Below, in pieces: positions 33,245-49,299 of a DNA stretch of 64,000 nucleotides (positions are counted from its first letter, which is position 1; every line of letters begins with the position of its first letter). The position numbers and the translations under genes are program-made. The notes under the pieces were generated by a model. That model searched no databases, was not told where the DNA came from, and worked only from the letters and a program-made list of their open reading frames with translations. The stretch lies in the NCBI RefSeq assembly GCF_014656455.1, contig NZ_BNCL01000006.1, positions 128,780 through 192,779 of the forward strand, in the 5' to 3' direction. The stretch comes from Paracoccus aerius. GTDB taxonomy: Bacteria > Pseudomonadota > Alphaproteobacteria > Rhodobacterales > Rhodobacteraceae.

Positions 33245-33254
33245 GAGCATGACG

Positions 33255-33659
33255 ATGAAATCCTTTTCCCCAGCCCTGGCTGCAGCCTTTCTTGCCCTTG
33301 CCGGTCCGGCGGCCGCAGATTGCGGCCCTCACCTGGACCTGATGGACGAAGTGCTTGACCGGGCCTCGCGCGAATCCATCGCCGCGTCATCGGGCGGCCA
33401 AGGGGTCGCGGGCGCCCGTGAGGCCCGCGCCATGACCGAGACCGAGGCGCCGGGCGAGGACGAGACCGGGATGGAAGCCGCCGAGGATCCCGAACCCCAA
33501 CAAGCCCCCGGCCATGCCGCGCCCGCCGAGGCCGGGGCCCGCGTCCAGCAGCTTCGCGCCTCGGTTGACGAAGCCCGTGCCCAGGACGCCACCGCCTGCC
33601 GCGAAACGCTTGTGACCGCCTTGGCCGACCTGCTGGCCGATCAGGAGGAACAGGAATAG
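33255..33659 (+). CDS. Small exported protein, unknown function
   Basis: 134 residues with a clean Sec signal peptide (MKSFSPALAAAFLALAGPAAA). The mature part is acidic, rich in Ala, Glu and Pro, and has two cysteines, one just after the cleavage site (DCGPHLDL) and one near the end (ATACRETLV), which could form a disulfide. ATG 33255 is preferred over 33249 because AGGAG lies 7 nt before it. It begins 10 bp after the molybdenum subunit and may be co-transcribed. No family recognised. Confidence 0.7.
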   Translation: MKSFSPALAAAFLALAGPAAADCGPHLDLMDEVLDRASRESIAASSGGQGVAGAREARAMTETEAPGEDETGMEAAEDPEPQQAPGHAAPAEAGARVQQLRASVDEARAQDATACRETLVTALADLLADQEEQE

Positions 33660-33863
33660 AAGCTGACCGGCACAGCACCTGCAGCGAACTGCGGGCGCGC
33701 CTTGCACTGCCTCAAAGGCGCACCTGCTGACAACTGAGGGGCGGGGGTAAACCGTTTTCCTGCCGCCTCCGGTCCCGCAAAGTCAGGCAGGGCAGGATCG
33801 GCCCGGCCCTTCGGTTTGGCGTCCTTGTGAAGCGTGCCGCTCCATTGACGCCTCCACCATGCA

Positions 33864-34337
33864 TCATGCATTGGCCGCGGCAGTGTCATGGTGGTGCCGG
33901 ATCTTCAGCATCACGACGGGAAATGCCATCAGCAGCGCGCCTCCGGCCAGGGCCGCCAGGCAAGTTCCCAGCCCGGCGGAACCTGTTGCCGTCGCGTTGC
34001 GGAAAACCTGAACGCCCAGCGGCAGGAACAGCAGCACGGCCGTCGCCGTGCCGGGAGAGTAAACCCGCGTGACGATGGTGGGAAGGACGTGGAAGAAGAC
34101 CGCGTTGATCAGCATCAATGATGCGAAGACCAGCGGAACGGCGGGCAGGGCCAGTGCCACCTGCGCCTGCACGGCTCCAAGCACCAGCACGGCGGCATTG
34201 GTGACATAGAAGTCTGGCCAGCCGACGGGCAGCTTCAGGATGTCCTGCGCCCAATCGCGCCAGTCCATCTGGAACTCCTCGAGAGCGTGGAGCGCATAGG
34301 CGGCCAGGCAAAGCCAGGCAAGGACGGACAGGGACAT
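33864..34337 (-). CDS. HXXEE domain-containing membrane protein
   Basis: 157 residues with about four hydrophobic helices. The family hallmark H-x-x-E-E is seen as YALHALEEFQMDWRDWA at residues 13-29, with a further His in FFHVLPTIV and a C-terminal His run, a set that could bind metal. Function of the family is unknown. The start at 34337 is preferred because GGAG lies 6 nt upstream; in-frame ATGs at 34349 and 34364 have no such site. It follows the DUF992 gene by 72 bp and probably shares the promoter at 34995-35059. Confidence 0.84.
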   Translation of the reverse strand: MSLSVLAWLCLAAYALHALEEFQMDWRDWAQDILKLPVGWPDFYVTNAAVLVLGAVQAQVALALPAVPLVFASLMLINAVFFHVLPTIVTRVYSPGTATAVLLFLPLGVQVFRNATATGSAGLGTCLAALAGGALLMAFPVVMLKIRHHHDTAAANA

Positions 34338-34409
34338 GATCGTCTCCATGAAGGAATGAACCATCGGATGCAGCCCACCGGTCCCGAAGAAGCGGCGGGC
34401 CGGGCGGTG

Positions 34410-34889
34410 CTAGCCTTGATGCACAAGTGTCATCCGGGTCACGCCGCCAGCGATGTTGATGCCGGTCTGGCCCTCGACCGAGATCGGCTGGAGCGAGAAG
34501 GAACGGTGGTTCCCGCCGACCAGAACATTGGCCCCCATGCCCACGCCAAGCGAGGCATCCGCGCTGACGCCCAGGTATTCGCCGGCCAGGGCACCCGACG
34601 GCACGCCCGAAGTGGTCGCCGACACTACGCCCCAGACAAGCTGTCCAGCCTCGGTGGCGCCCAGTTCGATCCCCCATTCCTGCATCGTGCCCTCGTAGAT
34701 GTCGCCGCGGCTGGAGCCATTGGCGCGGTATACGCAGCGCATGCTCTGCTTCTCGCGCAGGATATGGCCGATGCCGGAGGAAACGTCGCAAGACAGGACG
34801 CCCAGATGCGCCGACACGCGGGCATCCGCCACCGCGACCGTGCTGGCCGCGATCACCATTGCTGCAAGGATTGATTTCAGGATCTTCAT
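34410..34889 (-). CDS. DUF992 family exported protein
   Basis: 159 residues. A Sec signal peptide (about residues 1-22, ending AVADA) leads into the DUF992 pattern: LGVLSCDVSSGIGHIL, the second Cys in SMRCVYRANG, then GTMQEWGIELGATEAGQLVWGVVS and a glycine-rich region ending GGNHRSFSLQPISVEGQTG. The two cysteines probably form a disulfide in the periplasm. Function unknown. It is the first gene behind the regulatory site at 34995-35059, with a leader of about 100 nt. Confidence 0.82.
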   Translation of the reverse strand: MKILKSILAAMVIAASTVAVADARVSAHLGVLSCDVSSGIGHILREKQSMRCVYRANGSSRGDIYEGTMQEWGIELGATEAGQLVWGVVSATTSGVPSGALAGEYLGVSADASLGVGMGANVLVGGNHRSFSLQPISVEGQTGINIAGGVTRMTLVHQG

Positions 34890-34994
34890 TTTCGGTCATC
34901 CGTGATGATGTTGAAGGAAAGCCGGTCCAAGTCCGCTGGAGGGGCACCAAGATCGGCAAGGGGATTGTGGTGGCGCCGCTAGGCCACGCCTTGG

Positions 34995-35059
34995 TTCTAG
35001 CAGAGAGCGTGCCTAGAGGCTTTGCCCCGGCGTCTCAAGGTTTTCGCATGACGTTTCAG
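34995..35059 (-). promoter_or_regulatory. AraC-type tandem-box promoter, site A (DUF992-HXXEE unit)
   Basis: Read on the minus strand: degenerate distal box CTGAAACG (35059-35052), proximal box TTGAGACG (35038-35031), -35-like CAAAG (35024-35020) and -10-like GCTAGA around 35001-34996. The spacing from the proximal box to CAAAG and CTAG is identical to sites B, C and D; the two boxes are 21 bp apart instead of 20. It precedes the DUF992 gene by about 108 bp. Probable binding site of the AraC protein encoded at 43837-44865; inference from conservation. Confidence 0.6.
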
Positions 35060-35095
35060 CCGGACGGCGTGCTGGCCCGAGGCAAGGGCCGGGAA

Positions 35096-35119
35096 CCGGC
35101 CCCGCCTCGGCGGGACCGG
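35096..35119 (-). terminator. Hairpin after the autotransporter gene
   Basis: CCGGCCCCGCC (35096-35106) and GGCGGGACCGG (35109-35119) pair with a single mismatch, 16 bp beyond the autotransporter stop and before site A. No clear T-run follows. Likely transcription barrier that separates the autotransporter unit from the DUF992 unit. Confidence 0.45.
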
Positions 35120-35134
35120 CTTGGACGGCGGGCT

Positions 35135-36220
35135 TTAGAACCGGTAATCGACCCGGATCTCGGCTGTGTGGTTGTCATAGCCCGAGCCGAAGTCGCCCCG
35201 ATACGCCGCCGAGAAGCTGGTATTGCCGGTCGTGACAAGTTCAGCTTCCAGACCGACCTTCAACAGCCGGTCGGGCAGCGCCGTGCGGGCCTCGAACGCG
35301 TCGACCCCCGAGGCAAGGGTTGCCGAAGGCGACCAGGCGTCGTCCGACATCAGCGCATATCCCAGGCTGCCCGTCAGCTTCAGGGTCGAGCCGCCGGACA
35401 GGGCCACGTCATGGCCCAATGCAATGCCGGGCGTCACGATCAGGGTGGTGTCGGAGGTCTTGCCGACGGACAGGTTGAAGGGGCTGGCCCCGCTTTCGGA
35501 AAAGCCGTCGGTGCGGACATGCAGCAGGCTTACGTCCAGGCGCGGCTCGACAAAGCCCCAGGAAAAGGCGCGGTGCCAGGCGGCCCGGCCGTGCAGGCCC
35601 GCGTGCCAGCTGTCCGTCGATCCGGTGGCCCGGCCGCCCAGGCCACCCAGGGCGATCTGGCGGTCGGTGTCGAACCAGCCGTGGCCGATCTCGGCCGCGC
35701 CCGACAAGCGCCAGTCGCCCTGGCTCCAGGTCAGGAAGCCGCCCAGCTGGACGCTGTCGCCGTCGACCTTGCCGACGCCCGTGCGATCCTCGGCCGACAG
35801 GTTCTCATAACCGATCGCCCCGCCCACGGTCATGTTGTCCGCGACGGCCTGCGCCCCGCCGATGTGGAAGCCCCACGAGCGGGCCTCATAGCCTCCGGCG
35901 TCGGAATCGTCGTCCATCGTGGCCCGGCTGCCGGTCCATTTGCCCCATCCGCAGCGGCCCTGGGCGCCGACATCGCAGCCCGACCAGATGCCGTCGACGA
36001 ACTGCTGGCTTGCGTGATAGCGGGTCGCCCCGATCAGCCCAAGCGCCTGGCCCGACAGCATGTCCAGCGTCGCCGCCGCATCTGCGGCATCGACCCCCGC
36101 CAGGGCGGCATAGCCATGATCCATCCGCACCCCGGCATCCCAAAGGTCTTCAAGATGGCTGGCGATGGCTTCGCGATTGTCGCCCATCCCTGCAGCCGCA
36201 TCCCGCATGGCCGCCTGCGG
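35135..36220 (-). other. Autotransporter beta-barrel domain region
   Basis: Sub-region coding about the last 360 residues. It contains alternating hydrophobic strands such as SWGFHIGGAQAVADNMTVGG, WRLSGAAEIGHGWFDTDR and AAWHRAFSWGFVEPRLDVS and ends with phenylalanine. The linker MRDAAAGMGDNREAIASHL marks the start of the membrane-inserting unit. The single pair of cysteines (CDVGAQGRC) early in the domain may be disulfide-bonded. Confidence 0.85.
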
Positions 36221-39200
36221 CGTCACCGTCACCGAACCGCCGCCAAGGGCGACGCCATAGGTGAAGAAGGTGCCCTCGACCGTTTGGGCGCTTTCGCCAA
36301 GCTTCAGGTCGCCCCCGACGCGGGCGATCTCGACGCTGCCCTTGCGCAGGGTGGTGGGGCGGATCGTGAACTCGCCGCCAAAGCTTGCATCGCCCGAGAT
36401 GTCCAGCCGGTCGGCAGTGCCCTTGGCGAAGTCGGCCCCATGCACGAGCCGGCTGCCGCCCTTGCCGTCATAATTGCCCTCAAGCGCTGTCACCCGTGCC
36501 TTGTGGGTCAGATCCAGGGTGCCCCGGTTGGTCAGCGTGCCGCCGCCCAGCCTGATGGATTGGTAGGGCGTGATGGTGCCCGAGCCGTTGTTGGTGATGT
36601 TGCCGTTCCGCAGGTTGATGTTGCCGGCGATCTGGCCAAAGTTCTGGCCATTGAAGGTCGCGCCGCTGGAATAGACGGCGGTGCCCTGGTTCGTGTCATG
36701 GCTCAGGATATAGCCATAGTTCGTCAGGGTGTCCGGGCTGGCTGCGTTCTGGCTGCCGTCGACGATGTAGATGGCTGCCGCGTCGTCCTGGAACCCGTTG
36801 CCGCCTTTCACCGCGCCGCAGTTGTTGCCGTTGGAAAAGTCGCATCCGTCGCCGGCGCTGCCGACATTGATCTGGACCTGGTTGCCCGTGCCCGAGCCGC
36901 CGTTGTCCGCGCCGCCGGTCGACTGGGCCAGCACGCCGACCGAAGCCGCGCCCTGCGCATCGACGACACCCGCGACATTGACCGTCACAAGTCCTCCCGA
37001 ACCGGACCCGCCGCCCGAGCCGATATAGGCCGCGGCGTTGTTGGTGAACCAGCCGCCACCGCCTCCGACGGTCTGGGCCACGATGGCTGGGGCGTTGGGG
37101 CCGGTGGTCGTCACCCAGGCCCCGCGCGACACATCCACCGCGACGTCGCCGCCGTTGCCGGTCTGCTTGCTGCCGCTGCGGTTGATGCGAACCTTTTGCA
37201 TGGTATGCCCCAGGTCGCCGGCGATCCCTCCGCCGCCGCCAACGGACTGGGCAAAGACGCCGAAGCTGCCCGCCCCGTCCGTCGTGATGTTGGCGCCCAC
37301 GGTCACCCTTGTGGCATTAGACGGATCGCCCGCCTGAACGCTGCCGGTCCGGCTTCCCGTGCCCATGAAATCGGCCGCGGTCGAGCCGTTGGGCTTGCCG
37401 CCCTGCACCAGGCCGCCGCCTGCGGAAACGCTTTGCGCAAGAATGCCGACCGAGTTGTCCCCGCTGGTCGTGATCGTCCCCCCGGCCGAGGTGATGACAA
37501 TGGCCGGACCCGAGGGCCGGGACATGTTCGTCGAAGTGCCGCCCAGCTTGATGTTCGCTGCGAAATCCTTGGATGACTTGGTCGAGGCGGACCCGCCCGC
37601 GTTGTCCAGATCCGTGGCCAGCGCCTTGACCATGCCGCCACCGCCTGCGACCGATTGTGCGATGATGCCATAGCTGTCATGGCCGCGCGTCTCGATTGCG
37701 CCGGAACTTGTCACCTGCGCCGATTCCGACACGCCGTAATAGCCTTGGGCATTGCCGCCAAGCGCGATGTTGAGGGCGTAGGACTTCTTGCCGTCGCTGC
37801 CGGTCGAAGTCGCGGTGGACGCCCCGCCGATGCCGCCGCCGCCGCCGATGGACTGGGCGATGATGCCGTTCGCCAGGGCGCCGATGGTCACGACCTGGCC
37901 CGAATTGGTCACGAAGACCTGGCCGCCGTTGTCGCTGTTCACCCCCTTCTTCTTCCCATCGCCGCTGTTCGTGCTGCCGCCCACCGAGATCTGGCCGGAA
38001 TAGTCGCCGCTGCTTGCCGTCGAGGCCGCGCCGCCCTTGCCGCCGCCGCCGCCGATGGACTGGACGACGATGGCATCCGAATGCTTGCCAAGGGTGGCGA
38101 CATCCCCCTGGTTGTTCACCGTCATGACGCCACCCGCGCCGCCAAGGCCGCCGCTGCCGCCGACCCCCACGTTCACGGCAATCGACTTCGCATCGTTGTC
38201 GTCATCCGTCTTGCCGCCGCTTTCGGCGGTCTCGTCGGCCGCATCGGCCAAGCCGTCGTCACCGACGCCGGTATCGGCATTGCCCAAGCCCTGGTTCACG
38301 GTGCCCAGAAGCTTCGTGATGTTGTCGTAACCATCCATGGCCTTGTCGGCACCGTTGATGAAATCCTGAACAATGGTGCCGAACAGGTTGTCCAGTTGGG
38401 GGGCCTGGCCATTAGACCCGTCATTGTTGGACTTGGCATCGGCCGAGGATGTTCCTGCCTTGCCGCCGGCCCCGCCGCCGCCGCCGATCGATTGCGCGAA
38501 GATCGCATGGGCATCCGCGCCAAAGGTCACGATCGAACCCTGGTTGGTCACCGTGGAATCCGACCCGCGGTAGAAGGTGTCGCCACCGTTTCCGCCCTTG
38601 CCGCCCACCATCACCGAGGCCTGGACGGTGCCCGAGTTCGAGGCGGCAGCGCCGCCGCCCTTGCCGCCGCCGCCGCCTATGGTCTGCGCGGCGATCCCGT
38701 GCGACCCGTCGCCAAGCGTCGCGATGGCGCCGGTGTTGGTTGCAAAGACATTGCCGCCTTGACCGCCCGAACCGCCCGAGCCGCCAAGGGCGATGCTTGT
38801 CGATGCACTTTTGTCCGCGCCGGTGCTCGACTTGGAATCGCCCGCGCCGCCGCTGCCCCCGCCGCCGCCGATGGACTGCACGAGGATGCCGTCGGCCGCT
38901 TCGCCCGCCGTGAAGACGAGGCCGTCGTTCCGGGCCGTGACATCACCCCCCGTTCCGCCGCCGCCACCCGTCCCGCCATGCGTAATGCTGGCCGAAAAGT
39001 TGAAGCCGCCGCCCGACACGGTCGAGGCCCCTGCCGCGTCCCCGCCCGTGCCGCCGCCGCCGCCGATCGACTGGCCCAAGATCCCGATGCCGCCGCCGCC
39101 CCGCGTCGCGACCAGGCCCTGGCTGGAAAGCTTGACCGTCGAGCCGTTCCCGGCGTTCTGCCCCTTTCCGCCTGTCGACAGGGCCAGCGAGAAGCCCGGA

Positions 39201-41122
39201 TATTCCCCGCCGGCCTTGGCTACGCTCTTGGCGCTCGACGCGCCTCCGGTTCCGCCGCCGCCGCCGATCGACTGGCCGAGGATCCCGAAGCTTTCCGAGC
39301 CCGAGGTGACGACGGCGCCACCGTTTACCAGGCCGCCGGCCGTGTTGACGGTGCCCGCGCTTCCCCCGTTGCCGCCGTCCCCGCCGACCGAGATCGACGC
39401 GCCATAGAAGCCGGAATAGGAACTGCCATAGCCTGCGCCGCCCGCGCCGCCGCCGCCGCCGATGGACTGCATCACGATGCCCGCCGCATGATCGCCCCGG
39501 GTGGTGACCGAGCCGCCGCTGCCCATTCCGGCAGATGCATCGCCGGCGCCGCCGCCATTTCCGCCGGTTCCGCCGATCACCATGTTGACGATCACGCCCG
39601 ATGATTTGGTGGCATCGCCGCCTTTCCCGCCGCCGCCGCCGATGGATTGCGCCAGAAGCCCGGTCGATCCGAAGCCGTAGGTGTCGATCTTGGCCTGCTG
39701 CAAGGCAATACTGGCGGTGCCGCCGTTCGACCCGTCGCCGCCATTGCCCCCGATCGCGAACCAGCCGTCCTTGGAATCCGGGCCGACGCCGCCGCCGCCG
39801 CCGATGGACTGGGCCACGACGGCTGCGTTGTTGTCGCCGGCCGCGCCGCTCTGCCCGGTCTGGACCACGGCGCCCGTGCCGTCGATCGCGGCATTGCCGG
39901 CCGCGCCGCCGGTGTTCCCGTCGCCGCTGATGGGGTTGAACCAGCTGCCGGAATGACCGCCCAGACCGCCCGCGCCGCCCAGCGACTGGACCAGCACGCC
40001 ATAGCTTTGTGCCAGCCCCGACGTATAGGCGGTCCCGTCCAGATGGGCGGTGGCGTTTCCTGCCGCGCCCCCGGCGCCGGCCTTGCCCGCGGCCGATCCG
40101 CCGCCGCCGGTGCCGCCGGTCCCGCCGATCGACACGACGCCAAGCGCCGCGCCCCCCGGCCCGGTTGCAAGAACCTCGGCCCCCGATGCCAAGGTGGCCG
40201 TGGCATTCGACGCGTGCCCGGCATCGCCGCCATCGCCCCCCTGCCCGCCGACCGTGGTGTATCCCTTGCCGCCACTGCCGCCATTGCCGCCCTGGCTGAC
40301 GACATAGGCGCCATAGTCATTCCCCGTGAAGGTGCCCCTCAGCGTGACGTCGATATCGCCACCGTTGCCGCCTTGCCCCCCCGGGGTGCCATCCGGCTGC
40401 AGGCCGATGCCCGTGTCCTTCCCAAGGCCGCCGGTTCCGCCCACATTGGTGGCGTAAAGCGCAGCGGCCGAAGTGCTTGTCCAGGTTCCGCCGATGTCCA
40501 GCGTGACGGTGCCGCCATTGCCGCCACCGGCCGAGAACCCGTCGCTCGACCCGTCCGAGGCATAGGTCGCGATCCCGCCGCCGCCGCCATTGCCCCCCAC
40601 CGACCAGATCGAGATGGCGTTCATCGGCGTGGTGCTGCCCAAGGACTTGCCCGAGGTATTCGGACCTACCGTCAGGCCGATCGACCCGCCGTTCTGGCCG
40701 GGCTTGCCGTTGCCGCCACGGTTGCGCCAGGAATCCACCGGGCCGGGATTGCCGTTGCCGCCATGCCCGCCGCTGCCGCCGGCCGAGGTGACCTGCAGCG
40801 GCGCCGTGACCCCGTCGGTGGCAAGGTCCATGATGTTGTCCAGCTGCAGCCCGAGGATGTCCCCGCCAGGTGTGCCATCGGTCCCGTCGTTGCCGGGATT
40901 GTCGCCGCTGCCGTCGGTTCCGTCCTTCCCGCTGGTCCCGCTTTCGTCGTAAAGGCAGGTGTTGCCCGGATCGCAGTTCTGGGCGCGGGCCGGGGCCAAT
41001 CCGCCCGCCGCAATCAATGCGGTCGTGGCCAGAAGGATCGCCAGCAGGCTTTGCCGATGGCGCCGAAGCGCGGGCATGTCTGGATCGGCGGGGCGTTTGG
41101 TTGCGGTGTGATGCTTGGACAT
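35135..41122 (-). CDS. Giant glycine-rich autotransporter with C-terminal beta-barrel
   Basis: 1995 residues, type V secretion. Residues 1-48 form a long signal peptide (RRHRQSLLAILLATTALIAA, cleavage near PARAQ). Residues about 49-1630 are the passenger: a glycine- and serine-rich array in which a core like GIIAQSIGGGGG recurs about 16 times, roughly every 60 residues, each followed by a short variable patch and a beta-strand region (a beta-solenoid is likely). Residues about 1640-1995 are the autotransporter beta-domain, ending in the required aromatic residue (EIRVDYRF). Likely a surface adhesin or matrix protein. It starts 54 bp after the DUF6622-like gene and probably shares promoter B. 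Long open frames on the opposite strand are artefacts of its composition. Confidence 0.94.
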   Translation of the reverse strand: MSKHHTATKRPADPDMPALRRHRQSLLAILLATTALIAAGGLAPARAQNCDPGNTCLYDESGTSGKDGTDGSGDNPGNDGTDGTPGGDILGLQLDNIMDLATDGVTAPLQVTSAGGSGGHGGNGNPGPVDSWRNRGGNGKPGQNGGSIGLTVGPNTSGKSLGSTTPMNAISIWSVGGNGGGGGIATYASDGSSDGFSAGGGNGGTVTLDIGGTWTSTSAAALYATNVGGTGGLGKDTGIGLQPDGTPGGQGGNGGDIDVTLRGTFTGNDYGAYVVSQGGNGGSGGKGYTTVGGQGGDGGDAGHASNATATLASGAEVLATGPGGAALGVVSIGGTGGTGGGGSAAGKAGAGGAAGNATAHLDGTAYTSGLAQSYGVLVQSLGGAGGLGGHSGSWFNPISGDGNTGGAAGNAAIDGTGAVVQTGQSGAAGDNNAAVVAQSIGGGGGVGPDSKDGWFAIGGNGGDGSNGGTASIALQQAKIDTYGFGSTGLLAQSIGGGGGKGGDATKSSGVIVNMVIGGTGGNGGGAGDASAGMGSGGSVTTRGDHAAGIVMQSIGGGGGAGGAGYGSSYSGFYGASISVGGDGGNGGSAGTVNTAGGLVNGGAVVTSGSESFGILGQSIGGGGGTGGASSAKSVAKAGGEYPGFSLALSTGGKGQNAGNGSTVKLSSQGLVATRGGGGIGILGQSIGGGGGTGGDAAGASTVSGGGFNFSASITHGGTGGGGGTGGDVTARNDGLVFTAGEAADGILVQSIGGGGGSGGAGDSKSSTGADKSASTSIALGGSGGSGGQGGNVFATNTGAIATLGDGSHGIAAQTIGGGGGKGGGAAASNSGTVQASVMVGGKGGNGGDTFYRGSDSTVTNQGSIVTFGADAHAIFAQSIGGGGGAGGKAGTSSADAKSNNDGSNGQAPQLDNLFGTIVQDFINGADKAMDGYDNITKLLGTVNQGLGNADTGVGDDGLADAADETAESGGKTDDDNDAKSIAVNVGVGGSGGLGGAGGVMTVNNQGDVATLGKHSDAIVVQSIGGGGGKGGAASTASSGDYSGQISVGGSTNSGDGKKKGVNSDNGGQVFVTNSGQVVTIGALANGIIAQSIGGGGGIGGASTATSTGSDGKKSYALNIALGGNAQGYYGVSESAQVTSSGAIETRGHDSYGIIAQSVAGGGGMVKALATDLDNAGGSASTKSSKDFAANIKLGGTSTNMSRPSGPAIVITSAGGTITTSGDNSVGILAQSVSAGGGLVQGGKPNGSTAADFMGTGSRTGSVQAGDPSNATRVTVGANITTDGAGSFGVFAQSVGGGGGIAGDLGHTMQKVRINRSGSKQTGNGGDVAVDVSRGAWVTTTGPNAPAIVAQTVGGGGGWFTNNAAAYIGSGGGSGSGGLVTVNVAGVVDAQGAASVGVLAQSTGGADNGGSGTGNQVQINVGSAGDGCDFSNGNNCGAVKGGNGFQDDAAAIYIVDGSQNAASPDTLTNYGYILSHDTNQGTAVYSSGATFNGQNFGQIAGNINLRNGNITNNGSGTITPYQSIRLGGGTLTNRGTLDLTHKARVTALEGNYDGKGGSRLVHGADFAKGTADRLDISGDASFGGEFTIRPTTLRKGSVEIARVGGDLKLGESAQTVEGTFFTYGVALGGGSVTVTPQAAMRDAAAGMGDNREAIASHLEDLWDAGVRMDHGYAALAGVDAADAAATLDMLSGQALGLIGATRYHASQQFVDGIWSGCDVGAQGRCGWGKWTGSRATMDDDSDAGGYEARSWGFHIGGAQAVADNMTVGGAIGYENLSAEDRTGVGKVDGDSVQLGGFLTWSQGDWRLSGAAEIGHGWFDTDRQIALGGLGGRATGSTDSWHAGLHGRAAWHRAFSWGFVEPRLDVSLLHVRTDGFSESGASPFNLSVGKTSDTTLIVTPGIALGHDVALSGGSTLKLTGSLGYALMSDDAWSPSATLASGVDAFEARTALPDRLLKVGLEAELVTTGNTSFSAAYRGDFGSGYDNHTAEIRVDYRF
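36900..40300 (-). repeat. Coding repeats of the QSIGGGGG module
   Basis: Degenerate in-frame repeats within the passenger. About 16 copies of a core of the form [GA]-I-[LIVF]-x-Q-[ST]-[IV]-G-G-G-G-G, plus about four weaker copies nearer the N-terminus (for example YVVSQGGNGGSGG and LGVVSIGGTGGTGG). Periodicity is about 60 residues (180 bp). The DNA appears on the plus strand as recurring CCGCCGCCGCCGCCGAT-type tracts. Confidence 0.85.
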
Positions 41123-41176
41123 GATGTCTCCGTTCCCCCAGGGGGGTTGATGAAGGAATGATGGACTGTCGGTTCG

Positions 41177-41695
41177 TCAGGCGCCGAAGGCGCTGCGTGT
41201 TGTTCGATGGGCCAGGGCGTAGCGGGCGAACTTGCCGATGAAGATGCCGGTAAAGGCACCGCACAACAGCAGATCGGCAGCGCGGAAGCCCGCTTGGTGC
41301 AGAAGTTGGGGCGAGGTCGCTGCGATGACGCCAAAGCTGTACTTGACCCCGAAGGCCACCAGCAGAAGCGGCAGCAAGGTCATGTCGGCAGGCCGGCTGA
41401 TCATGCCGCTGGATGCGTCCGCCCGGATGTCGGCACGGGCCAGAAGCCGCCAGCCGATGACGCTTCCCAAGGCGATGCCTGCCAGCCACAAGGCGGCGGT
41501 GCCGGCTTCAAGGCCGTAAAGCCTTGCAAGATCCGCAAGGCCCCAGGCCGTGAAGATCGCCGGGACCACGGCGAGCTTTGGCAGGCTGGTCCTGGCAGGC
41601 CGGCGGGCCTTGATCCCGCGATGGATCAGATAGGCCAGCAGCACCCATACCCAAAGGGGCGTCTGAACCATGAACTGTCGGAATATCTCGGACAT
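41177..41695 (-). CDS. Small integral membrane protein, DUF6622-like
   Basis: 172 residues with five hydrophobic segments, starting with FRQFMVQTPLWVWVLLAYLIHRGIKARRP, which fits the pattern of DUF6622 (tentative). A later GMISRPADMTLLPLLLVAFGVKY and FRAADLLLCGAFTGIFIGKFARYAL are typical of inner-membrane helices. GGAGATC precedes ATG 41695. It lies directly behind promoter B (CTAG 29 bp upstream of the start) and 54 bp before the giant autotransporter, so the two are probably one transcript. Function unknown. Confidence 0.75.
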   Translation of the reverse strand: MSEIFRQFMVQTPLWVWVLLAYLIHRGIKARRPARTSLPKLAVVPAIFTAWGLADLARLYGLEAGTAALWLAGIALGSVIGWRLLARADIRADASSGMISRPADMTLLPLLLVAFGVKYSFGVIAATSPQLLHQAGFRAADLLLCGAFTGIFIGKFARYALAHRTTRSAFGA

Positions 41696-41721
41696 GATGA
41701 TCTCCAGGAAGGTCTTCCATG

Positions 41722-41785
41722 TTCTAGCCGATTGCCGGCTTTCCGGCTTTGGCAGGACGTCTCAAGTTTTTGCGCTGCGTCTCAA
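41722..41785 (-). promoter_or_regulatory. AraC-type tandem-box promoter, site B (DUF6622-autotransporter unit)
   Basis: Minus-strand order: TTGAGACG (41785-41778), 12-bp spacer ending in AAAAAC, TTGAGACG (41765-41758), CCAAAG (41752-41747) as -35 and GCTAGA (41728-41723) as -10. Box period 20 bp. The distal box overlaps the stop codon of the upstream 170-residue gene (41782-41784). The start codon of the DUF6622-like gene is 29 bp from CTAG, so the leader is only about 20 nt. Confidence 0.68.
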
Positions 41786-42294
41786 TCTCGCGGAACTGGC
41801 CCCGGCGGCGGGATCGGCGCGCGTCCCGCCGCCACGGCGTCGGGGATCACCATCTCACCATGCATCACCATCGTCGCGTGAAACCGGCCAGGGGTCCCGG
41901 CAATCGGCCCCGCCTTCCATGTTCCGTGCCACCAGGCATCTTCGGGCGGCAGGAAGACCTGGATCGCGGGATCCGCAAGATCGCGGCCCAGCATCCTGCC
42001 AAGGCCCGGCGCCAGGCCGTAAAGCCGGGCGGCAATGGCGGCGGCCACCCCTGCCTGAAGGCCGGATACCGGCTGCACAAGCTGGTCGGCCCCAAGACTG
42101 GCCCAGCAGAAATCCACCTGTTCCCCGCCCGGCATGACCGAAACCACCAAGGCGCCGTCCAGGGGCGAGCCTGACAGGTCATGACAGCCAAAGGGCGCTT
42201 CCACCGCCGCCAGATCCTGACCGCGCAGCAGGCACAGGAAGGACATCCCGTCCACCTGGACTACTGCGCAACTGCATTCGGCCATGATTCCCAC
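41782..42294 (-). CDS. Uncharacterised 170-residue protein behind promoter C
   Basis: GTG 42294 is preferred because AAGGAG lies 6 nt upstream; ATG 42285 is the alternative. No signal peptide or membrane helix is obvious. Two N-terminal cysteines (ECSCAVV) and a third in RGQDLAAVEAPFGCHD, a glycine-rich middle (AARLYGLAPGLGRMLGRD) and FHATMVMHGEMVIP near the end are the main features. It is organised as a soluble, beta-rich protein, but no family is recognised. It lies behind site C, and its 3' end carries the distal box of site B. Confidence 0.72.
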   Translation of the reverse strand: MGIMAECSCAVVQVDGMSFLCLLRGQDLAAVEAPFGCHDLSGSPLDGALVVSVMPGGEQVDFCWASLGADQLVQPVSGLQAGVAAAIAARLYGLAPGLGRMLGRDLADPAIQVFLPPEDAWWHGTWKAGPIAGTPGRFHATMVMHGEMVIPDAVAAGRAPIPPPGPVPRD

Positions 42295-42325
42295 GGGTGG
42301 CTCCTTCTCCAAGCCTGTCCTTCGA

Positions 42326-42389
42326 CATTAGCGTGAAGGCCTGCCCATGGCTTTGGCAGGGCGTCTCAACATTTTGCGCTGCGTCTCAA
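42326..42389 (-). promoter_or_regulatory. AraC-type tandem-box promoter, site C (170-residue gene; possibly also MFS)
   Basis: Minus-strand order: TTGAGACG (42389-42382), 12-bp spacer, TTGAGACG (42369-42362), CCAAAG (42356-42351) and GCTAAT (42332-42327) as -10. Geometry is identical to site B. It sits between the divergent 170-residue gene and the MFS gene at 42480, so bound protein could act on both, although the core promoter points to the minus strand. Confidence 0.66.
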
Positions 42390-42479
42390 TCTGGCGGCCC
42401 CTCGGGGCAGGCCGTCGTTGACAGGTGACGGCCGAGACCCTTCAACTGCTTGGGGTGTATTCGGTCCAAAGGTGCCGCC

Positions 42480-43835
42480 GTGGCAGAGGACAAGACCTTG
42501 TCGGAAGGGGTGGCAGATCCGGTCCGCAATCCAGCGTCGCGGGTCTTCGTCGCCTCGATGGTGGGAACGACGATCGAATACTACGACTTCTATATCTATG
42601 CGACTGCCGCGGTTCTGGTCTTTCCGCACCTGTTCTTTCCCGCGGGGGACGAGACCGCCTCGCTTCTGGCGTCGCTGGCGGTCTTCGGCGCCGGCATGGT
42701 CGCCCGCCCCGCCGGCGCGATCTGGTTCGGCCACCTAGGGGACCGCAAGGGCCGCAGGCTTGCGCTGACGGGATCACTGGTGCTGATGGGCGCGGCCACC
42801 TGCCTGATCGGGCTGCTGCCGGTCCACGATGTGATGGGTTGGTGGGCACCGTTGCTGCTGGTGATCCTGCGCATGGCGCAGGGCTTCGCGATCGGCGGTG
42901 AGTGGAGCGGCGCGGTCGTCGTTGCCACCGAAAACGCCCCGGCTGGTCAAAGGGGGACCTTCGGCACCTTCCCGCAACTGGGCGCCCCCTTCGGCTTCAT
43001 CCTGGCCAACGGCGTTTTCCTTGCCCTGGGGACATGGCTTCCATCCGACGATCCAAGCCGGCCCTCGGATGCGTTCCTGCAATGGGGCTGGCGCCTGCCC
43101 TTCCTGCTGGCTGGGCTGTTGGCGATGATCGGGATCTGGGTGCGTTTGACCCTGGTCGAAAGCGAAGCCTTTCGCCGCAGCGAGGCAAGCGGCCGGATCC
43201 GCCCCCTGCCCCTGGGCAGCCTGTTCCGCGAATGCGGACCTGCGGTTGTCCTGGGAACCCTTTATACCCTGGCGACGACCGTCCTGTTCTTTTCCATGAG
43301 CACCTTTTCCCTGTCCTATGGCCGCGCCGCGCCCGATGCGCCGCTTCCCGGCCTGGGCTATGACTATACCAGCTTCCTGGCCCTTCTGATCCTTGGCGTC
43401 ATGTTCTTTGCGGCGACAACGGCGGTTTCGGGTCCGCTCAGCGACCGTTTCGGCCGCCGGCCGCTGATGCTGTGCGTGACAATCGCGATTGCGGTCTTTG
43501 GCCTGATCTGGGTGCCGCTGCTGTCGTCGGGCTTCTGGGGGCTGCTGATCTGGCTGATCACGGGCTTTGTGCTGATGGGCCTGACCTTCGGCCCGATCGG
43601 CGTCCTGTTGTCCGAACTGTTCCCCAGCCACCTGCGCTATACCGGGACCGGCATGGCCTATAACCTGGCCTCGATGCTGGGCGCTTCCACGGCGCCCTTT
43701 GTCATGATCGCGCTGTGGCGTGCCGGGGCCGGAAGCCCGGTCTGGGCAGGGCTTTACCTGTCGGGGGTGGCCCTGGTGACCCTTGCCGCCCTGCTTGTCG
43801 GGCAGGAAACCCGGCATGTCGACATCTTGGGCTAG
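42480..43835 (+). CDS. MFS transporter, metabolite:H+ symporter (MHS) family
   Basis: 451 residues, twelve membrane helices. The MHS N-terminus SMVGTTIEYYDFYIYATAAV, the loop GHLGDRKGRRLALTGS, and GGEWSGAVVVATENAPAGQRG are diagnostic of the ProP/ShiA/KgtP group, and LLSELFPSHLRYTGTGMAYN fits the C-terminal half. Import of an organic acid, betaine or similar compound by proton symport is expected. GTG 42480 is chosen over an upstream TTG because the protein then begins MAEDKTLSEG and AAAGG precedes it. The only plus-strand gene in the AraC cluster; convergent with the AraC gene. Confidence 0.9.
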   Translation: MAEDKTLSEGVADPVRNPASRVFVASMVGTTIEYYDFYIYATAAVLVFPHLFFPAGDETASLLASLAVFGAGMVARPAGAIWFGHLGDRKGRRLALTGSLVLMGAATCLIGLLPVHDVMGWWAPLLLVILRMAQGFAIGGEWSGAVVVATENAPAGQRGTFGTFPQLGAPFGFILANGVFLALGTWLPSDDPSRPSDAFLQWGWRLPFLLAGLLAMIGIWVRLTLVESEAFRRSEASGRIRPLPLGSLFRECGPAVVLGTLYTLATTVLFFSMSTFSLSYGRAAPDAPLPGLGYDYTSFLALLILGVMFFAATTAVSGPLSDRFGRRPLMLCVTIAIAVFGLIWVPLLSSGFWGLLIWLITGFVLMGLTFGPIGVLLSELFPSHLRYTGTGMAYNLASMLGASTAPFVMIALWRAGAGSPVWAGLYLSGVALVTLAALLVGQETRHVDILG

Positions 43836-43836
43836 G

Positions 43837-44865
43837 TCACTGAAGCTGGCGCAGGATCTCGGAAAAGGACAAGTCGTCGGTGCCGGCCCTGCCCCAGGCC
43901 GGGGCTGGTTCTCCGGGCTGGGTGTCGCGCGGTGCGTGGCCGAACAGGGCGCGAAAGGCGCGGCTCATCTGGCCCTGGCTTGAGAAGCCGTATTTCCAGG
44001 TCAACTGGCCAAGGTGATGGGGACCGGGCCCGGTCAGTTCGGCCCGAAGACGGTGCAGCTTGCGTTCCTGGATATAGGCCGCAACGCCGCCAAGGGGCTG
44101 GAACAGCCGGTAAAGCGACGCCCGCGACATGGCAAATGTCGCCAGAAGCGTCTCCTGCCCAAGATCGGGGTCCAGAAGGTGCTTGTGGATATGGCGCAGG
44201 ATCCGTTGCCTTTTGGCCATGTCCAGAACAGGACGACCCGTTTCCGCTGTCAGCTGCGCCGGGGCGGCCGTCGCGGCGATCAGTTGAAGGGTCGCCCGGG
44301 TCACCGGCTCGGCATCGCGGGCCGGCAGGGACGGCAGTTTCCGGACCAGGGCCGCCAAGTGGTCCGCCACGAGTCCCCCCACCGGTCCTTCCGGCACAAA
44401 GCCATGAAGGTCGCGCGGCCCCGGCAGAAGGGCATCAAGCGTGTCCCGGGTCACGATGAACTGCATCAGGCGTCCGGTCCCGCAATCCGCCTCTTCCGCG
44501 CGGGCCAGGTCCGAAAAGATCATCTGCCCCTGCCGCACCAGCTTGCGCTGATCACGGGCCTGGTGCCGGATGATCGTGCCCTCCAAGGGCAGGAGGATGC
44601 GGTATTGGTCGATCTGCAGGCGCCGTGTGATCTTCTCGGTCCGCACCATCCTTCGTTCGGTGAAGAACCCGCCCGCGACCGCCAGATGCCCCAGCGACCA
44701 GGCCGAGACATCCGCCTCGAACCTTTCGGGAAGGGCGCCGTCGGGCAATTGCAGGTCATGGATCTGCTGCACGGTTTCGCGCCACATGTCGAACTTCTCG
44801 CCTTCGGCGACACCCTGCGTCGAGAAGCGCTTCACGGGAAGGGGCAAGGCTTGGTCACTCGTCAT
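43837..44865 (-). CDS. AraC family transcriptional regulator of the tandem-box regulon
   Basis: 342 residues. The N-terminal part (RFSTQGVAEGEKFDMWRETV) resembles the AraC_binding_2 domain of NphR/FeaR-type activators. Residues about 225-320 form the two helix-turn-helix units (LGQETLLATFAMSRASLYRLF and LGQLTWKYGFSSQGQMSRAF). A good GGGAG site precedes ATG 44865. AraC proteins with two such units bind direct repeats about 21 bp apart, which fits the TTGAGACG pairs nearby. It lies 104 bp behind the DUF6790-like gene, so it may be transcribed from promoter D, giving autoactivation. Inducer unknown. Confidence 0.9.
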   Translation of the reverse strand: MTSDQALPLPVKRFSTQGVAEGEKFDMWRETVQQIHDLQLPDGALPERFEADVSAWSLGHLAVAGGFFTERRMVRTEKITRRLQIDQYRILLPLEGTIIRHQARDQRKLVRQGQMIFSDLARAEEADCGTGRLMQFIVTRDTLDALLPGPRDLHGFVPEGPVGGLVADHLAALVRKLPSLPARDAEPVTRATLQLIAATAAPAQLTAETGRPVLDMAKRQRILRHIHKHLLDPDLGQETLLATFAMSRASLYRLFQPLGGVAAYIQERKLHRLRAELTGPGPHHLGQLTWKYGFSSQGQMSRAFRALFGHAPRDTQPGEPAPAWGRAGTDDLSFSEILRQLQ

Positions 44866-44969
44866 AAGAGCTCCCGCACAACCGCAGGCCGGCGGTGGCC
44901 GACCGGATGGTCTTGTGTTGTCGCAATTGCCTGCCTTCTGTCAATCCGCCACAGCATCCGGCTTGCGGA

Positions 44970-45464
44970 TCATCGCGAAGCCAGAAGCAGATAGCCCAAT
45001 GCCACCGCCGCCACGAGAAGGTCGGTGACCATCGCCAGGTTCTGCGGGCGGGTTCGCGACCTCTCCGATCCGTGCCGCAGGCCGGCGAGGCCCAGGAACA
45101 CAGCGCCCAGGAAGGCCGCCGGGGCTGTCCATGCCGGAACCACCAGGCTCGCGGTCGCAAGCAAGCCCATGGCGATGTTGGCGATCCCCAATTCACGGAC
45201 CAGTTTTTCGGCAGCGGGATCCGCGATGCCAAGAATGCCGGCCGCCGTCAGCGACGGACGCACAACCTGCAAGATCCCGGCCACCAGCAGACGGATGCCG
45301 ATCCCCCAGAACACGAACCATGTCCCGGCAAGCGCGACGACATGGTCCCCGCTTCCTGCCGCCCGGAAGAACAGGACGAAGGCCACCGGAAGAACGACGG
45401 TCGTCGACAGAACGACAATGTCATGCCCATGCCCCGTCAGGGCGTTGCTTTGTCCGATGCTCAT
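44970..45464 (-). CDS. Small integral membrane protein, DUF6790-like
   Basis: 164 residues with four or five hydrophobic segments. The central block WGIGIRLLVAGILQVVRPSL, IADPAAEKLVRELGIANIAM and AAFLGAVFLGLAGLRHGSE matches what I recall of DUF6790 proteins; the name is tentative. GTGGAG precedes ATG 45464. CTAG of promoter D lies 29 bp upstream of the start, exactly as at promoter B. It is followed by the AraC gene on the same strand. Function unknown. Confidence 0.76.
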   Translation of the reverse strand: MSIGQSNALTGHGHDIVVLSTTVVLPVAFVLFFRAAGSGDHVVALAGTWFVFWGIGIRLLVAGILQVVRPSLTAAGILGIADPAAEKLVRELGIANIAMGLLATASLVVPAWTAPAAFLGAVFLGLAGLRHGSERSRTRPQNLAMVTDLLVAAVALGYLLLASR

Positions 45465-45490
45465 TTGCAGCTCCACGGTTGCTGCCACTG

Positions 45491-45554
45491 TCCTAGCACG
45501 CCCGGCCACGCCGGTCTTTGGCCGGGCGTCTCAAGTTTTGTGCTGCCGTCTCAA
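45491..45554 (-). promoter_or_regulatory. AraC-type tandem-box promoter, site D (DUF6790-araC unit)
   Basis: Minus-strand order: TTGAGACG (45554-45547), 12-bp spacer, TTGAGACG (45534-45527), CCAAAG (45521-45516) and GCTAGG (45497-45492). Box period 20 bp and all downstream spacings equal sites B and C. It controls the DUF6790-like gene and possibly the AraC gene itself. Confidence 0.68.
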
Positions 45555-45594
45555 GCTGCGGCACGGACAACGCGCCCTTAAGGCAAACGATCAT

Positions 45595-45625
45595 GGCCCC
45601 GCGCCACCGGAAGGGGCGCGGGGCC
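45595..45625 (-). terminator. Hairpin after the Amadori-compound operon
   Basis: GGCCCCGCGCC (45595-45605) pairs perfectly over 11 bp with GGCGCGGGGCC (45615-45625), loop of 9 nt, 25 bp beyond the stop of the last operon gene. No T-run, but it is the strongest stem in this gap and separates the operon from site D. Confidence 0.55.
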
Positions 45626-45649
45626 GCGTGCTGACCTATGACCGCGGGA

Positions 45650-46663
45650 TCAATAGGCGACGCGCTTGTAATACCTGCGCGTCACCAGCGGGTGGTCGCG
45701 CATCACCTCGAGATGGGCGCTCAGCCGCTCCATCAGGGTGGCCATGAAGGCGGGCGACAGAAGCGCGCGCAGTTCGGGCGACAGGTCGCGGGGGCAATAG
45801 TCGGCGGTGTTGATGACCGTCAGCTTGTCGGTATAGCGCTTGGCGAATTCCTCGACCCGGACAGCCAGGGGATCATAGGCATCCTCGCCGCGGAACAGGA
45901 CCAGGCTCACGCCCGTGTCGATCAGTTCCAGCGGGCCATGGAAGAAGTCCGAGGCATGGACCGGCCGGGTGCGGATCCACTGCATCTCCTCGAGGATGCA
46001 GGTGGCATAGTACAGCGCCTCGGGCCACATGTTCCCTGCGCCGGTGAACATGTGATAGTCCGATCCGGCGATGATCTGGGCAAACTCCTCGGCGCGGGGC
46101 TCGAAAGCGGCCTTTGCCTGGACAAGCGCGGCGGGCACGGTTGCCAGTTCGGCCACCAGGGCGTCGTAGTGGGGCAATTCGCCCTTGGCCTTCATCACGG
46201 ACAAGGCCACCAGAAGCGACTGGAGGTAGAAGGATTCGGACGAGGTGTCGTCTTCGGCGAAATTGACCAATGCCGGATTGCCGCCAAGCCCCAGCGGCGT
46301 GTCGGCATGGCCGATCAGGGTGATGATCTTCGCGCCTACTTCCTTGACCTTGTTCAGCATCGCGACGCTTTCGCGGGTCGTTCCCGACAGCGAGGGCATG
46401 ACCACGATGGACTTGTCCGTCAGGTTCGCGGACCCGGTCAACACCAGTTCGGCCGGGAAGTCCTTGAACACCGGAAAGCTGCTTTTGCGCTGCAGAAGCT
46501 GGACCGCCGGCTCCATCAGATAGGCGACGCCGCCTGTTCCCAGGAAGTAAAGGTTGCGGGCGCCGTCCGCGATGGCGGCGCCGATTTCGTGGTCGATGCG
46601 GGGCGCCAGATCGACGGCCCCCTTCTGGATGCGGAGAAAGCGGGCTTCGTCAAAGTTGAACAT
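45650..46663 (-). CDS. SIS domain protein, FrlB-like fructosamine-6-phosphate deglycase
   Basis: 337 residues with two SIS domains: residues about 30-160 (NLYFLGTGGVAYLMEP, VVMPSLSGTTRESV) and about 200-320 (MFTGAGNMWPEALYYATCILEEMQWI, ASDFFHGPLELID). The E-E-M-x-W pattern and length of about 340 residues match FrlB, which splits fructoselysine-6-phosphate into glucose-6-phosphate and lysine. The context, FrlD-like kinase and FrlC-like epimerase in the same operon, supports this more than agglutinate-type glucosamine synthesis. Last gene of the operon. Confidence 0.84.
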   Translation of the reverse strand: MFNFDEARFLRIQKGAVDLAPRIDHEIGAAIADGARNLYFLGTGGVAYLMEPAVQLLQRKSSFPVFKDFPAELVLTGSANLTDKSIVVMPSLSGTTRESVAMLNKVKEVGAKIITLIGHADTPLGLGGNPALVNFAEDDTSSESFYLQSLLVALSVMKAKGELPHYDALVAELATVPAALVQAKAAFEPRAEEFAQIIAGSDYHMFTGAGNMWPEALYYATCILEEMQWIRTRPVHASDFFHGPLELIDTGVSLVLFRGEDAYDPLAVRVEEFAKRYTDKLTVINTADYCPRDLSPELRALLSPAFMATLMERLSAHLEVMRDHPLVTRRYYKRVAY

Positions 46664-46719
46664 GTCGGTTCCTTCAGTTCAGATTGGGAAAGGTGGAAAG
46701 GGATGGCGGGACAGCCCGG

Positions 46720-47841
46720 TCATTCCGCGGGCACTGCGACCTTGTGCCCGGCTTCCGCTGGGCGGATCGCGTTTTCGTGCCGGTCGAAAAGATGAAGATT
46801 CGCGGCCTCGGCAGTCAGGCCGATGTCGCGGCCCGGGTGCAGGTCCAGGTGGCCCGGCAGCTTGGCGATCAGGGGCGCGGCAAGGCCGGGCAGGTCCAGA
46901 TAGGTCAACTGAACCTCGCCCAGTTGCTCGACCAGGGAGATCGTCGCGCGGAACAGCGGGTCCGTGGAGCATGGCCGCAGATCCTCGGGGCGGATGCCCA
47001 GATGCACGCGCTGTCCCTGCATGGCCGCCTCGGTGGGAATGGGAACAGCGACCGTGAAGCCCGCGTCCAGTTCGACGCGGGTGTCAGGCCCCGTCCGGGC
47101 AAGCGTGCCCCCCAGGACGTTCATCGAGGGCGAGCCGATGAACTGGCCGACGAACAGGTTCGCGGGCCGACGGTACAACTCGACAGGCGATCCGACCTGC
47201 TCGATCCGGCCGTCCCGCAGGACCACGATCCGGTCGGCCAGGGTCATGGCTTCGACCTGGTCGTGCGTGACGTAGATCATCGTGGCGCCGGGCATCGCCT
47301 GCTTCAGCTTCGCGATCTCGATCCGGGTGGCCACGCGCAGGGCCGCGTCCAGGTTCGACAGCGGCTCGTCGAAGAGAAACACCTTGGGGTCGCGCACGAT
47401 GGCCCGCCCAATCGCCACACGCTGGCGCTGCCCCCCTGACAGCGCGCGGGGATAGCGGTCAAGATAGGGGGTCAACTGCAGGATCTCGGCGGCCTGCCGG
47501 ATGCGGGCGGCGATCTGGTCCTTCCGGAAGCCTGCGATCTTCAGACCGAAGGCCATGTTGTCGAACACGGTCATGTGCGGGTAAAGCGCATAGGACTGGA
47601 ACACCATCGCGATGCCGCGCTGCGACGGGGCCACGTCGTTCATGAGCGCGCCGTCGATGCGGAACTCGCCCGAGCTGATATCCTCGAGCCCGGCGATGGC
47701 CCGCAGCAGCGTGGACTTGCCGCAGCCCGAGGGGCCTACGAAGACCACGAATTCGCCCGACCGGATGTCGAGATCTATGCCATGCAGCACCTCCACGGTG
47801 CCGTAGTTCTTGCGAATGTCTCTCAGCCTCAGTTCGGCCAT
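46720..47841 (-). CDS. Sugar ABC transporter ATP-binding protein (MalK/UgpC type)
   Basis: 373 residues. Walker A GPSGCGKST near residue 38, signature LSGGQRQRVAIGRA, Walker B FLFDEPLSNLDA and the switch histidine in YVTHDQVEA, followed from about residue 240 by an OB-fold TOBE regulatory domain, as in MalK. It energises the two permeases at 51010 and 51846. It lies between the FAD oxidoreductase and the SIS gene, with gaps of 48 and 56 bp. Confidence 0.94.
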   Translation of the reverse strand: MAELRLRDIRKNYGTVEVLHGIDLDIRSGEFVVFVGPSGCGKSTLLRAIAGLEDISSGEFRIDGALMNDVAPSQRGIAMVFQSYALYPHMTVFDNMAFGLKIAGFRKDQIAARIRQAAEILQLTPYLDRYPRALSGGQRQRVAIGRAIVRDPKVFLFDEPLSNLDAALRVATRIEIAKLKQAMPGATMIYVTHDQVEAMTLADRIVVLRDGRIEQVGSPVELYRRPANLFVGQFIGSPSMNVLGGTLARTGPDTRVELDAGFTVAVPIPTEAAMQGQRVHLGIRPEDLRPCSTDPLFRATISLVEQLGEVQLTYLDLPGLAAPLIAKLPGHLDLHPGRDIGLTAEAANLHLFDRHENAIRPAEAGHKVAVPAE

Positions 47842-47889
47842 CCCATTATCCTTCCTGTGGTGCCGGTTGCGCCTGTTGCCCCCGTGGGT

Positions 47890-49299
47890 TCAGCGGCCCG
47901 GCGTCATTTCCGACAGCCAGCGGACCAGCGGCCCGGCCCTGCGGTTCTGGATTTCAAGGTCGTTGCGGATGCGGATCGCGTGGCGCACCGCGCGCGCGCC
48001 CAGATAGCGGATCGGCTCGGGCGGAAGGGCGGTCCGGCGGGTCAGGCCGACAAGGCCGCTGCGGCTCCAGCGGTCGTCCTTGCCCAGGACCAGGCTGGCC
48101 AGGATCCGGCCGCCGACGGGGGTCTGCGCGATCCCGGTTCCGTTGTAGCCCACGCCGAAGAAGATGTTCGGGCAGCCGGAAAGCGTGCCGAAGACCGGCA
48201 GATGTTCGGCCATGCAGTCGATCGGCCCTGTCCAGTCATGGTCGATGCGCGCGTTCGCCAGTTCGGGATAAACGCGACCCAGTTCGCGGATGTTGTCGGC
48301 TGCGCCTTCGGGGCGGCGGTTGAAGGGGGCGCCGATCCTGCCGCCATAGGCGATCAGCCCGCTGCCCCGGCCGAAGATGACCCGCCCGCCCGGCGTGCGA
48401 TGGTAATAAAGGACATGGGACTGGGCGTCGCAGATGGATTCGCCGCCGGTCCAGCCGATCCGGTCCAGCGTGGCGCCCACCGGCTCGGTCGCGACGATCT
48501 GGCTTTCGACGACATACATGTAGCGCCGCAGTTCCGGGATCGCGGATGCCCAGGCATTGGTGGCCAGGACCACCTTGGCCGCCCGCACCCGACCCCCGGG
48601 GCAGCGCAGGGTGCAGGGTTGGCCGGATTCGACCGCCAGCACGGGCGTCCCCTCGTGGACAGTCACGCCACGGGACAGGGCCAGCGTCCTGAGGCCCGTC
48701 GCCAGCTTGGCCGGATGCACGGTCCCGGCACGCGGTTCCACGATGCCTGTATAGGATGCGTCCGATCCCGTCCGCCTGCGGATCTCGGCCGCTGCCAAGG
48801 GCAGGAACGGGTTTGTCCCCGTCTTGTCGCACAAGGCCAGTGCCGCGCCCCAGGCCCCTTCCTGCGCGGTCGAGCTGGCGGTCCACATCCAGCCGTCCAG
48901 CCGCAGGTCCATGTCGATGGTGCCCGAGGCCTGCAGGGCCGCCAGCTCCTCGACCGCATCGGCTGTGGCGCGGCACAGTGCCAGGGCTTCGCCTTCGCCG
49001 ACCAGACGGGTCAGCAGGTCAAGTTCGGCGTACCAGGTATGGACCTGACCGCCGTTGCGCCCCGAGGCACCCGCGCCGCACTGGTCGGCCTCGAGGATCG
49101 TGACCTTCAGGCCGGGGCTTTGCTCTTTCAGGCGCAGCGCGGTCCACAGGCCGGTGAAGCCCCCGCCGACAATGGCCACGTCGCAGTCGTGATCGCCCGC
49201 CAGGGGCTGTGTCGCCGGCTTTGCCCCGATGTCCTGAAGCCAGAACGATCGATCCGCATCGGCGGCTATTGTCGGTTTCCAAAGACTGAAGACAGTCAT
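47890..49299 (-). CDS. FAD-dependent oxidoreductase (DAO family) in the fructosamine operon
   Basis: 469 residues. N-terminal FAD motif DVAIVGGGFTGLWTALRL at residues about 40-57, ASGRNGGQVHTWYAELD after it, and the C-terminal IFFGVGYNGTGIAQTPVGGR that closes the flavin site. The layout resembles gamma-glutamylputrescine oxidase (PuuB) and other amine oxidases that act on secondary amines. In this operon it could oxidise the imported N-substituted amino compound or its product. It overlaps the kinase gene by 4 bp. Confidence 0.88.
   Translation of the reverse strand: MTVFSLWKPTIAADADRSFWLQDIGAKPATQPLAGDHDCDVAIVGGGFTGLWTALRLKEQSPGLKVTILEADQCGAGASGRNGGQVHTWYAELDLLTRLVGEGEALALCRATADAVEELAALQASGTIDMDLRLDGWMWTASSTAQEGAWGAALALCDKTGTNPFLPLAAAEIRRRTGSDASYTGIVEPRAGTVHPAKLATGLRTLALSRGVTVHEGTPVLAVESGQPCTLRCPGGRVRAAKVVLATNAWASAIPELRRYMYVVESQIVATEPVGATLDRIGWTGGESICDAQSHVLYYHRTPGGRVIFGRGSGLIAYGGRIGAPFNRRPEGAADNIRELGRVYPELANARIDHDWTGPIDCMAEHLPVFGTLSGCPNIFFGVGYNGTGIAQTPVGGRILASLVLGKDDRWSRSGLVGLTRRTALPPEPIRYLGARAVRHAIRIRNDLEIQNRRAGPLVRWLSEMTPGR

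Follow-up and report, generated by a model that had tools for sequence, protein, structure and literature searches.

In a 64,000-nucleotide stretch of the Paracoccus aerius genome (assembly GCF_014656455.1, contig NZ_BNCL01000006.1, positions 128,780 to 192,779; hereafter, the window), four sites on the minus strand, each carrying a tandem pair of bipartite 20-bp repeats, precede likely transcription units clustered around the gene of an AraC-type regulator (43837..44865, minus strand). As judged from the sequence, the best explanation of this arrangement, to which we assign a probability of about 0.77, is a closed local, autoregulated AraC regulon run by this protein. We prefer this explanation because the sites occur only in the cluster and one of them precedes the araC operon, and because the repeats are bipartite and stand in tandem about two helical turns apart, much as in operators of the AraC family, and the protein contains the domains that this role requires.

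Organization of the Tandem Sites

Read on the minus strand, each site consists of a distal 20-bp repeat, a proximal 20-bp repeat, 17 bp, and the octamer GCTA(G/A)NNN. Alignment of the eight repeats yields the consensus TTGAGACG-N7-AAA, present twice at a distance of 20 or 21 bp, in which TGARACG at positions 2–8 and AAA at positions 16–18 are invariant (T2, G3, A4, A6, C7, G8, A16, A17, and A18 occur in 8/8 repeats, T1 and G5 in 7/8). On the plus strand, the YTAG, CTTTG, and CGTCTC elements start, respectively, at 34997/35020/35031 (site A), 41724/41747/41758 (site B), 42328/42351/42362 (site C), and 45493/45516/45527 (site D), exactly at the coordinates and with the spacing claimed by the original prediction, an earlier reading of the same DNA. 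The alignment also bears out its period of 20 bp, found at sites B, C, and D, and of 21 bp, with one degenerate box, at site A.

Some of its other claims have to be amended. The four promoters were said to be identical, but the distal box of site A is degenerate (CTGAAACG, with the 21-bp spacing), and site C has TTAG. The CAAAG motif, listed as a separate element, belongs to the promoter-proximal repeat, of which it forms the second half, since all eight aligned repeats share AAA at positions 16–18; this half sits at the same position in the distal repeat as well, on which the original prediction was silent. All sites were described as intergenic, which generally holds, except that the distal repeat of site B shares four bases with the 3′ end of gene C, which lies upstream.

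The repeats were delimited by the alignment and the log-odds scan described below, and the promoter role of the −10 regions is presumed; all these features are on the minus strand. Site D comprises the distal repeat TTGAGACGGCAGCACAAAAC (45535..45554), the proximal repeat TTGAGACGCCCGGCCAAAGA (45515..45534), and the putative −10 region GCTAGGAC (45490..45497). The corresponding elements of site C are TTGAGACGCAGCGCAAAATG (42370..42389), TTGAGACGCCCTGCCAAAGC (42350..42369), and GCTAATGT (42325..42332), and those of site B, TTGAGACGCAGCGCAAAAAC (41766..41785), TTGAGACGTCCTGCCAAAGC (41746..41765), and GCTAGAAC (41721..41728). At site A, the degenerate distal repeat CTGAAACGTCATGCGAAAAC (35040..35059), 21 bp from the proximal repeat TTGAGACGCCGGGGCAAAGC (35019..35038), is followed by the putative −10 region GCTAGAAC (34994..35001).

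Between the sites, the proximal repeats are identical at 16–19/20 positions, the distal repeats at 11–18/20, and the 18 bases that follow the proximal repeat at 3–9/18. The repeats might in principle be leftovers of a recent promoter duplication with no common regulator, as sites B and C are identical at 37/40 positions across the two repeats. However, these two sites have diverged outside the repeats (4/18 behind and 11/25 before them), and sites A and D vary more at the variable repeat positions, yet keep TGARACG, AAA, and the distance to the −10 region, which makes such an origin hardly credible.

The candidate −10 hexamer is TAGAAC, with TAATGT at site C and TAGGAC at site D; a simple scan reported no sigma-70 consensus promoter at any of the four sites. 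If a 17-bp spacer is assumed, the proximal repeat spans, by simple arithmetic, approximately 4 bp of the −35 position. The distance from the −10 octamer to the start codon is 105, 26, 40, and 26 nt at sites A, B, C, and D, respectively, and GGAG-like motifs, noted by eye, precede the start codons at sites B, C, and D.

Placement of a site upstream of and over the −35 position in the absence of a consensus −35 is the usual layout of activators. The constant placement of this kind at all four sites, without a consensus −35, argues against the reading in which the AraC protein, on binding the sites, either mainly represses or activates only some of the units, an MFS gene on the plus strand included via site C. 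This reading draws on the location of site C between divergent genes, with the MFS start annotated in the related Paracoccus sp. AK26 approximately 95 bp away, and on repression by another AraC-family protein, WhpR, described in the excerpted text of PMC12538310; we regard it as very unlikely.

Distribution of the Sites

A search of the source assembly (4,222,010 bases, 107 contigs) for the motif with its exact geometry, proposed as a check of the original prediction, found it confined to the cluster. The full motif CTAG-N19-CTTTG-N6-CGTCTCAA occurs three times without mismatches, and the looser YTAG…CGTCTC form, four times, in all cases within the cluster. If up to two mismatches are allowed, the looser form is found at seven more places in the genome, each with exactly two mismatches, which we attribute to noise, since the reversed-pattern control gives six. 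Genome-wide, bipartite repeat pairs with at most three mismatches are confined to sites B, C, and D at the 20-bp distance (control, 0) and to site A at the 21-bp distance (control, 2). In a log-odds scan of the window for pairs 19–22 bp apart, the four sites score 51.5 to 59.0 bits, values inflated because the matrix was built from the same sites; no other pair exceeds 6 bits, and the maxima in four Markov shuffles range from 2.8 to 11.0 bits.

Outside this genome, the family was screened for the pattern of CTTTG plus two boxes in a set of 394 genomes, with almost one for each genus; at up to two mismatches, the pattern was seen in 1/394, namely, in the source genome itself. With at most three mismatches, it is present in 4/125 genomes of the genus: the source genome contributes three hits without mismatches, and each of three others, a single hit with 3 mismatches, compared to two control hits. 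The search for the 21-bp form covered the source genome and the homologous AK26 stretch only.

The AraC-Type Regulator

The C-terminal part of the protein is a double helix-turn-helix (HTH) domain of the AraC type (PF12833, 48.4 bits at a cut-off of 33.6), and helices 207–308 of the predicted model match the DNA-binding domains of MarA, SoxS, and other AraC-type proteins. The N-terminal part of the model, a predicted cupin-like sensor and putative dimerisation domain, matches the N domains of the CuxR, BgaR, AraC, and ToxT entries. The best structural match of the protein is CuxR, to which it is related both by the overall fold and by sequence. The best NCBIfam model is FeaR (NF007243), and the identity with FeaR was rejected, as the score is 69.2 bits compared to a cut-off of 199.

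The eight direct bipartite repeats, 20/21 bp apart, have the arrangement of AraC/XylS-family sites, with the binding and the −35 location being presumed. According to the excerpts of PMC5481539, XylS binds two direct repeats at the Pm promoter, each composed of boxes A and B, which are recognized by the pair of HTHs in one monomer, and the operator adjoins the RNA polymerase site. The sites described here are similarly bipartite and direct, as expected for a double-HTH protein of the AraC type. They differ from Pm in that the four sites of one cluster have a common layout, and in sequence and length, with TGCA-N6-GGTA in 15-bp repeats for XylS and TGARACG-N7-AAA in 20-bp repeats here; given the consensus TTGAGACG-N7-AAA, a XylS-type operator was rejected.

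Relatives of the regulator are scarce. Matches at 1e-20 were found in 6/295 genomes of the family (five besides the source genome, at 26–32% identity), at 1e-25 in 4/125 genomes of the genus (three besides the source genome, partial and distant), and at 1e-40 in 2/390 genomes of the order (the one besides the source genome at 3.2e-42); no close relative was seen in the remaining 124 genomes of the genus. In a tblastn search of 388 plasmid records, AK26 alone matched at 60% or more; relatives at 30–34% identity, in four of the 388, have unlike gene content and no tandem site in the scan. No divergent orthologous loci were found in genome contigs, with either a protein or an alignment query, or in viral contigs. 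A protein database search, in which the 7999 best candidates were scored, yielded at least five metagenomic orthologues at 72–78% identity (P0011–P0015) among the matches listed, the best 120 of 178 hits.

The same genome encodes a paralogue that shares 50% identity and similar HTH segments with the regulator (contig C20, 50239–51240; L014, 11930–12979). Its neighbors are a mandelate racemase-like gene, a DctM transporter gene, and glycosyltransferase genes, and inspection by eye pointed to a putative gene C remnant next to it.

Comparison With Plasmid pAK1

Plasmid pAK1 of Paracoccus sp. AK26 is the only close relative for which DNA is available; over 20 kb, it is colinear with positions 30001–50000 of the window and shares 98.8% identity with them. 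Because of this colinearity, the source contig is probably a plasmid or a chromid. pAK1 keeps all four sites and the same annotated gene order. Thus, conservation of the motif along with the AraC gene, suggested as another check of the original prediction, holds for one near-identical plasmid. The distal box of site A, CTGAAACG in P. aerius, is a perfect TTGAGACG in AK26, the strains differing at box positions 1 and 5, and its degeneracy therefore is a strain difference.

Evidence Against an AraC-Run Regulon

Several observations weigh against control by the AraC protein of the cluster. The AK26 sequence differs at 4/261 core bases of the sites vs. 11/453 other intergenic bases (Fisher p = 0.59), and three of the four core differences fall inside the repeats; our estimate of 0.77 is unchanged by this count, as it did not chiefly rest on the AK26 differences. 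Homologues of the DUF6790 protein, whose gene opens the site D unit, have no longest-contig size in common with the AraC orthologues P0011–P0023. The repeat resembles the boxes of MarA, SoxS, and Rob (consensus AYnGCACnnWnnRYYAAAY in the excerpted text of PMC3709825) in being an asymmetric bipartite site of approximately 20 bp, and the best fit of their consensus keeps the register, AAA falling at positions 16–18; it differs in having GAGACG in place of GCAC and in forming a tandem pair. This register match is not significant, as 10.75% of 2000 permuted consensuses fit equally well, and hence the identity of the repeat as a mar/sox box was rejected and we do not lean on the likeness.

Lastly, the 50% identical paralogue, given its similar HTH segments, could bind the sites instead. 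Tandem direct repeats also occur outside the AraC family, so that the repeats could be targeted by this paralogue or by a response regulator, with the AraC protein of the cluster controlling something else. Still, the sites are confined to the cluster, one of them lies before the araC operon, and the 20-kb surroundings of the paralogue contain neither an exact CGTCTCAA box nor a pair scoring above 2.2 bits. We regard another regulator as an unlikely alternative to the AraC protein encoded in the cluster.

Genes and Likely Units of the Cluster

The cluster is likely composed of four units, all on the minus strand, in which the gene pairs are regarded as operons because of their spacing and strand. 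The site D unit starts with the gene of a DUF6790 small membrane protein (44970..45464, ATG at 45464), the AraC/XylS-family regulator with the CuxR-like fold (43837..44865) probably being its second gene. The site C unit is gene C (41782..42285), encoding a hypothetical protein without a Pfam or NCBIfam match. The site B unit comprises the gene of a DUF6622 small membrane protein (41177..41695) and, probably as the second gene, that of a 1995-aa glycine-rich autotransporter (35135..41122) with a PF03797 beta-domain at the C end; the full-length protein has no Pfam match, and the domain was found when the C-terminal 371 residues were searched alone (5.3e-42). In the site A unit, a DUF992 protein whose N terminus resembles a signal peptide by eye (34410..34889) is followed by an HXXEE-domain protein (33864..34364), probably the second gene.

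On the opposite strand within the cluster lies the MFS metabolite/H+ symporter-like open reading frame (ORF; 42450..43835), whose control from site C is only putative. The minus-strand ORF 42774–43817, which has no Pfam match, was rejected as a gene and is taken to be the shadow of the MFS gene on the plus strand (42450–43835). Hence, the claim of the original prediction that the AraC protein at 43837–44865 activates all minus-strand units stands as the best reading, with activation presumed, once this ORF is dropped as a unit.

A database of 5.8 billion proteins yielded just eight homologues of gene C, including one at 98% identity. Another two share their longest-contig sizes, 3823 and 8547 nt, with the AraC orthologues P0013 and P0014, respectively, suggesting that they reside on the same contigs. 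Gene C was found in 1/125 genomes of the genus, the source one, and relatives of the DUF6622 protein are present on 25 other plasmid records, all below 60%.

Discussion

In the AraC-run regulon proposed here, the protein of the cluster likely binds the repeat pairs as a dimer, each double-HTH domain presumably reading one repeat, with the first HTH on GAGACG and the second on the AAA half. The proximal repeat, partly covering the −35 position and separated by a 17-bp spacer from the GCTAGAAC-like −10 region, would bring the regulator into contact with RNA polymerase and thus compensate for the missing −35 element. Activation is predicted for its own operon as well as for the three neighboring units. 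It would be gated by the cupin-like N-terminal domain through a ligand, with joint induction of the autotransporter and the small envelope proteins as the outcome. In the open-licence literature searched, we found no AraC regulation tied to TTGAGACG or to DUF992.

CuxR offers one conceivable candidate for the ligand. In Sinorhizobium meliloti, CuxR (PDB:5NLA) controls exopolysaccharide genes via cyclic di-GMP (c-di-GMP), as stated in secondary sources, and, according to the excerpted paper on VfmE, binds c-di-GMP through an RxxxR motif (literature on CuxR and c-di-GMP, in excerpts: PMC9045272, PMC10519070, PMC12538310, PMC7499043, PMC5567048, PMC12648661). The only RxxxR noticed on visual inspection of the displayed portion of the CuxR N domain, RFSTR, which is the likely motif, corresponds to RFSTQ in the P. 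aerius protein and varies in the clade; another one, RRMxR at residues 71–75, is kept in 13/13 proteins of the clade. The likely targets also differ from those of CuxR, being an autotransporter and small envelope proteins. It is a quite unlikely, speculative option that the regulator is a CuxR-like second-messenger-gated activator, in which c-di-GMP or another nucleotide, acting via RRMxR, turns on, through the four matching tandem-repeat promoters, a closed, plasmid-borne surface module made up of a giant autotransporter adhesin and the DUF6790, DUF6622, DUF992, and HXXEE proteins. If true, it would mean transcriptional control of an autotransporter by c-di-GMP in Paracoccus.

As a regulatory principle, the system is ordinary, likely a new, self-contained instance of a familiar type of gene switch, with a regulator from a thinly populated CuxR-like clade. 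It provides a clear-cut operator open to testing, two copies of TTGAGACG-N7-AAA at a distance of 20–21 bp, and places four families of obscure function and a giant autotransporter under one predicted switch; therefore, their function may be approached as that of one surface module.
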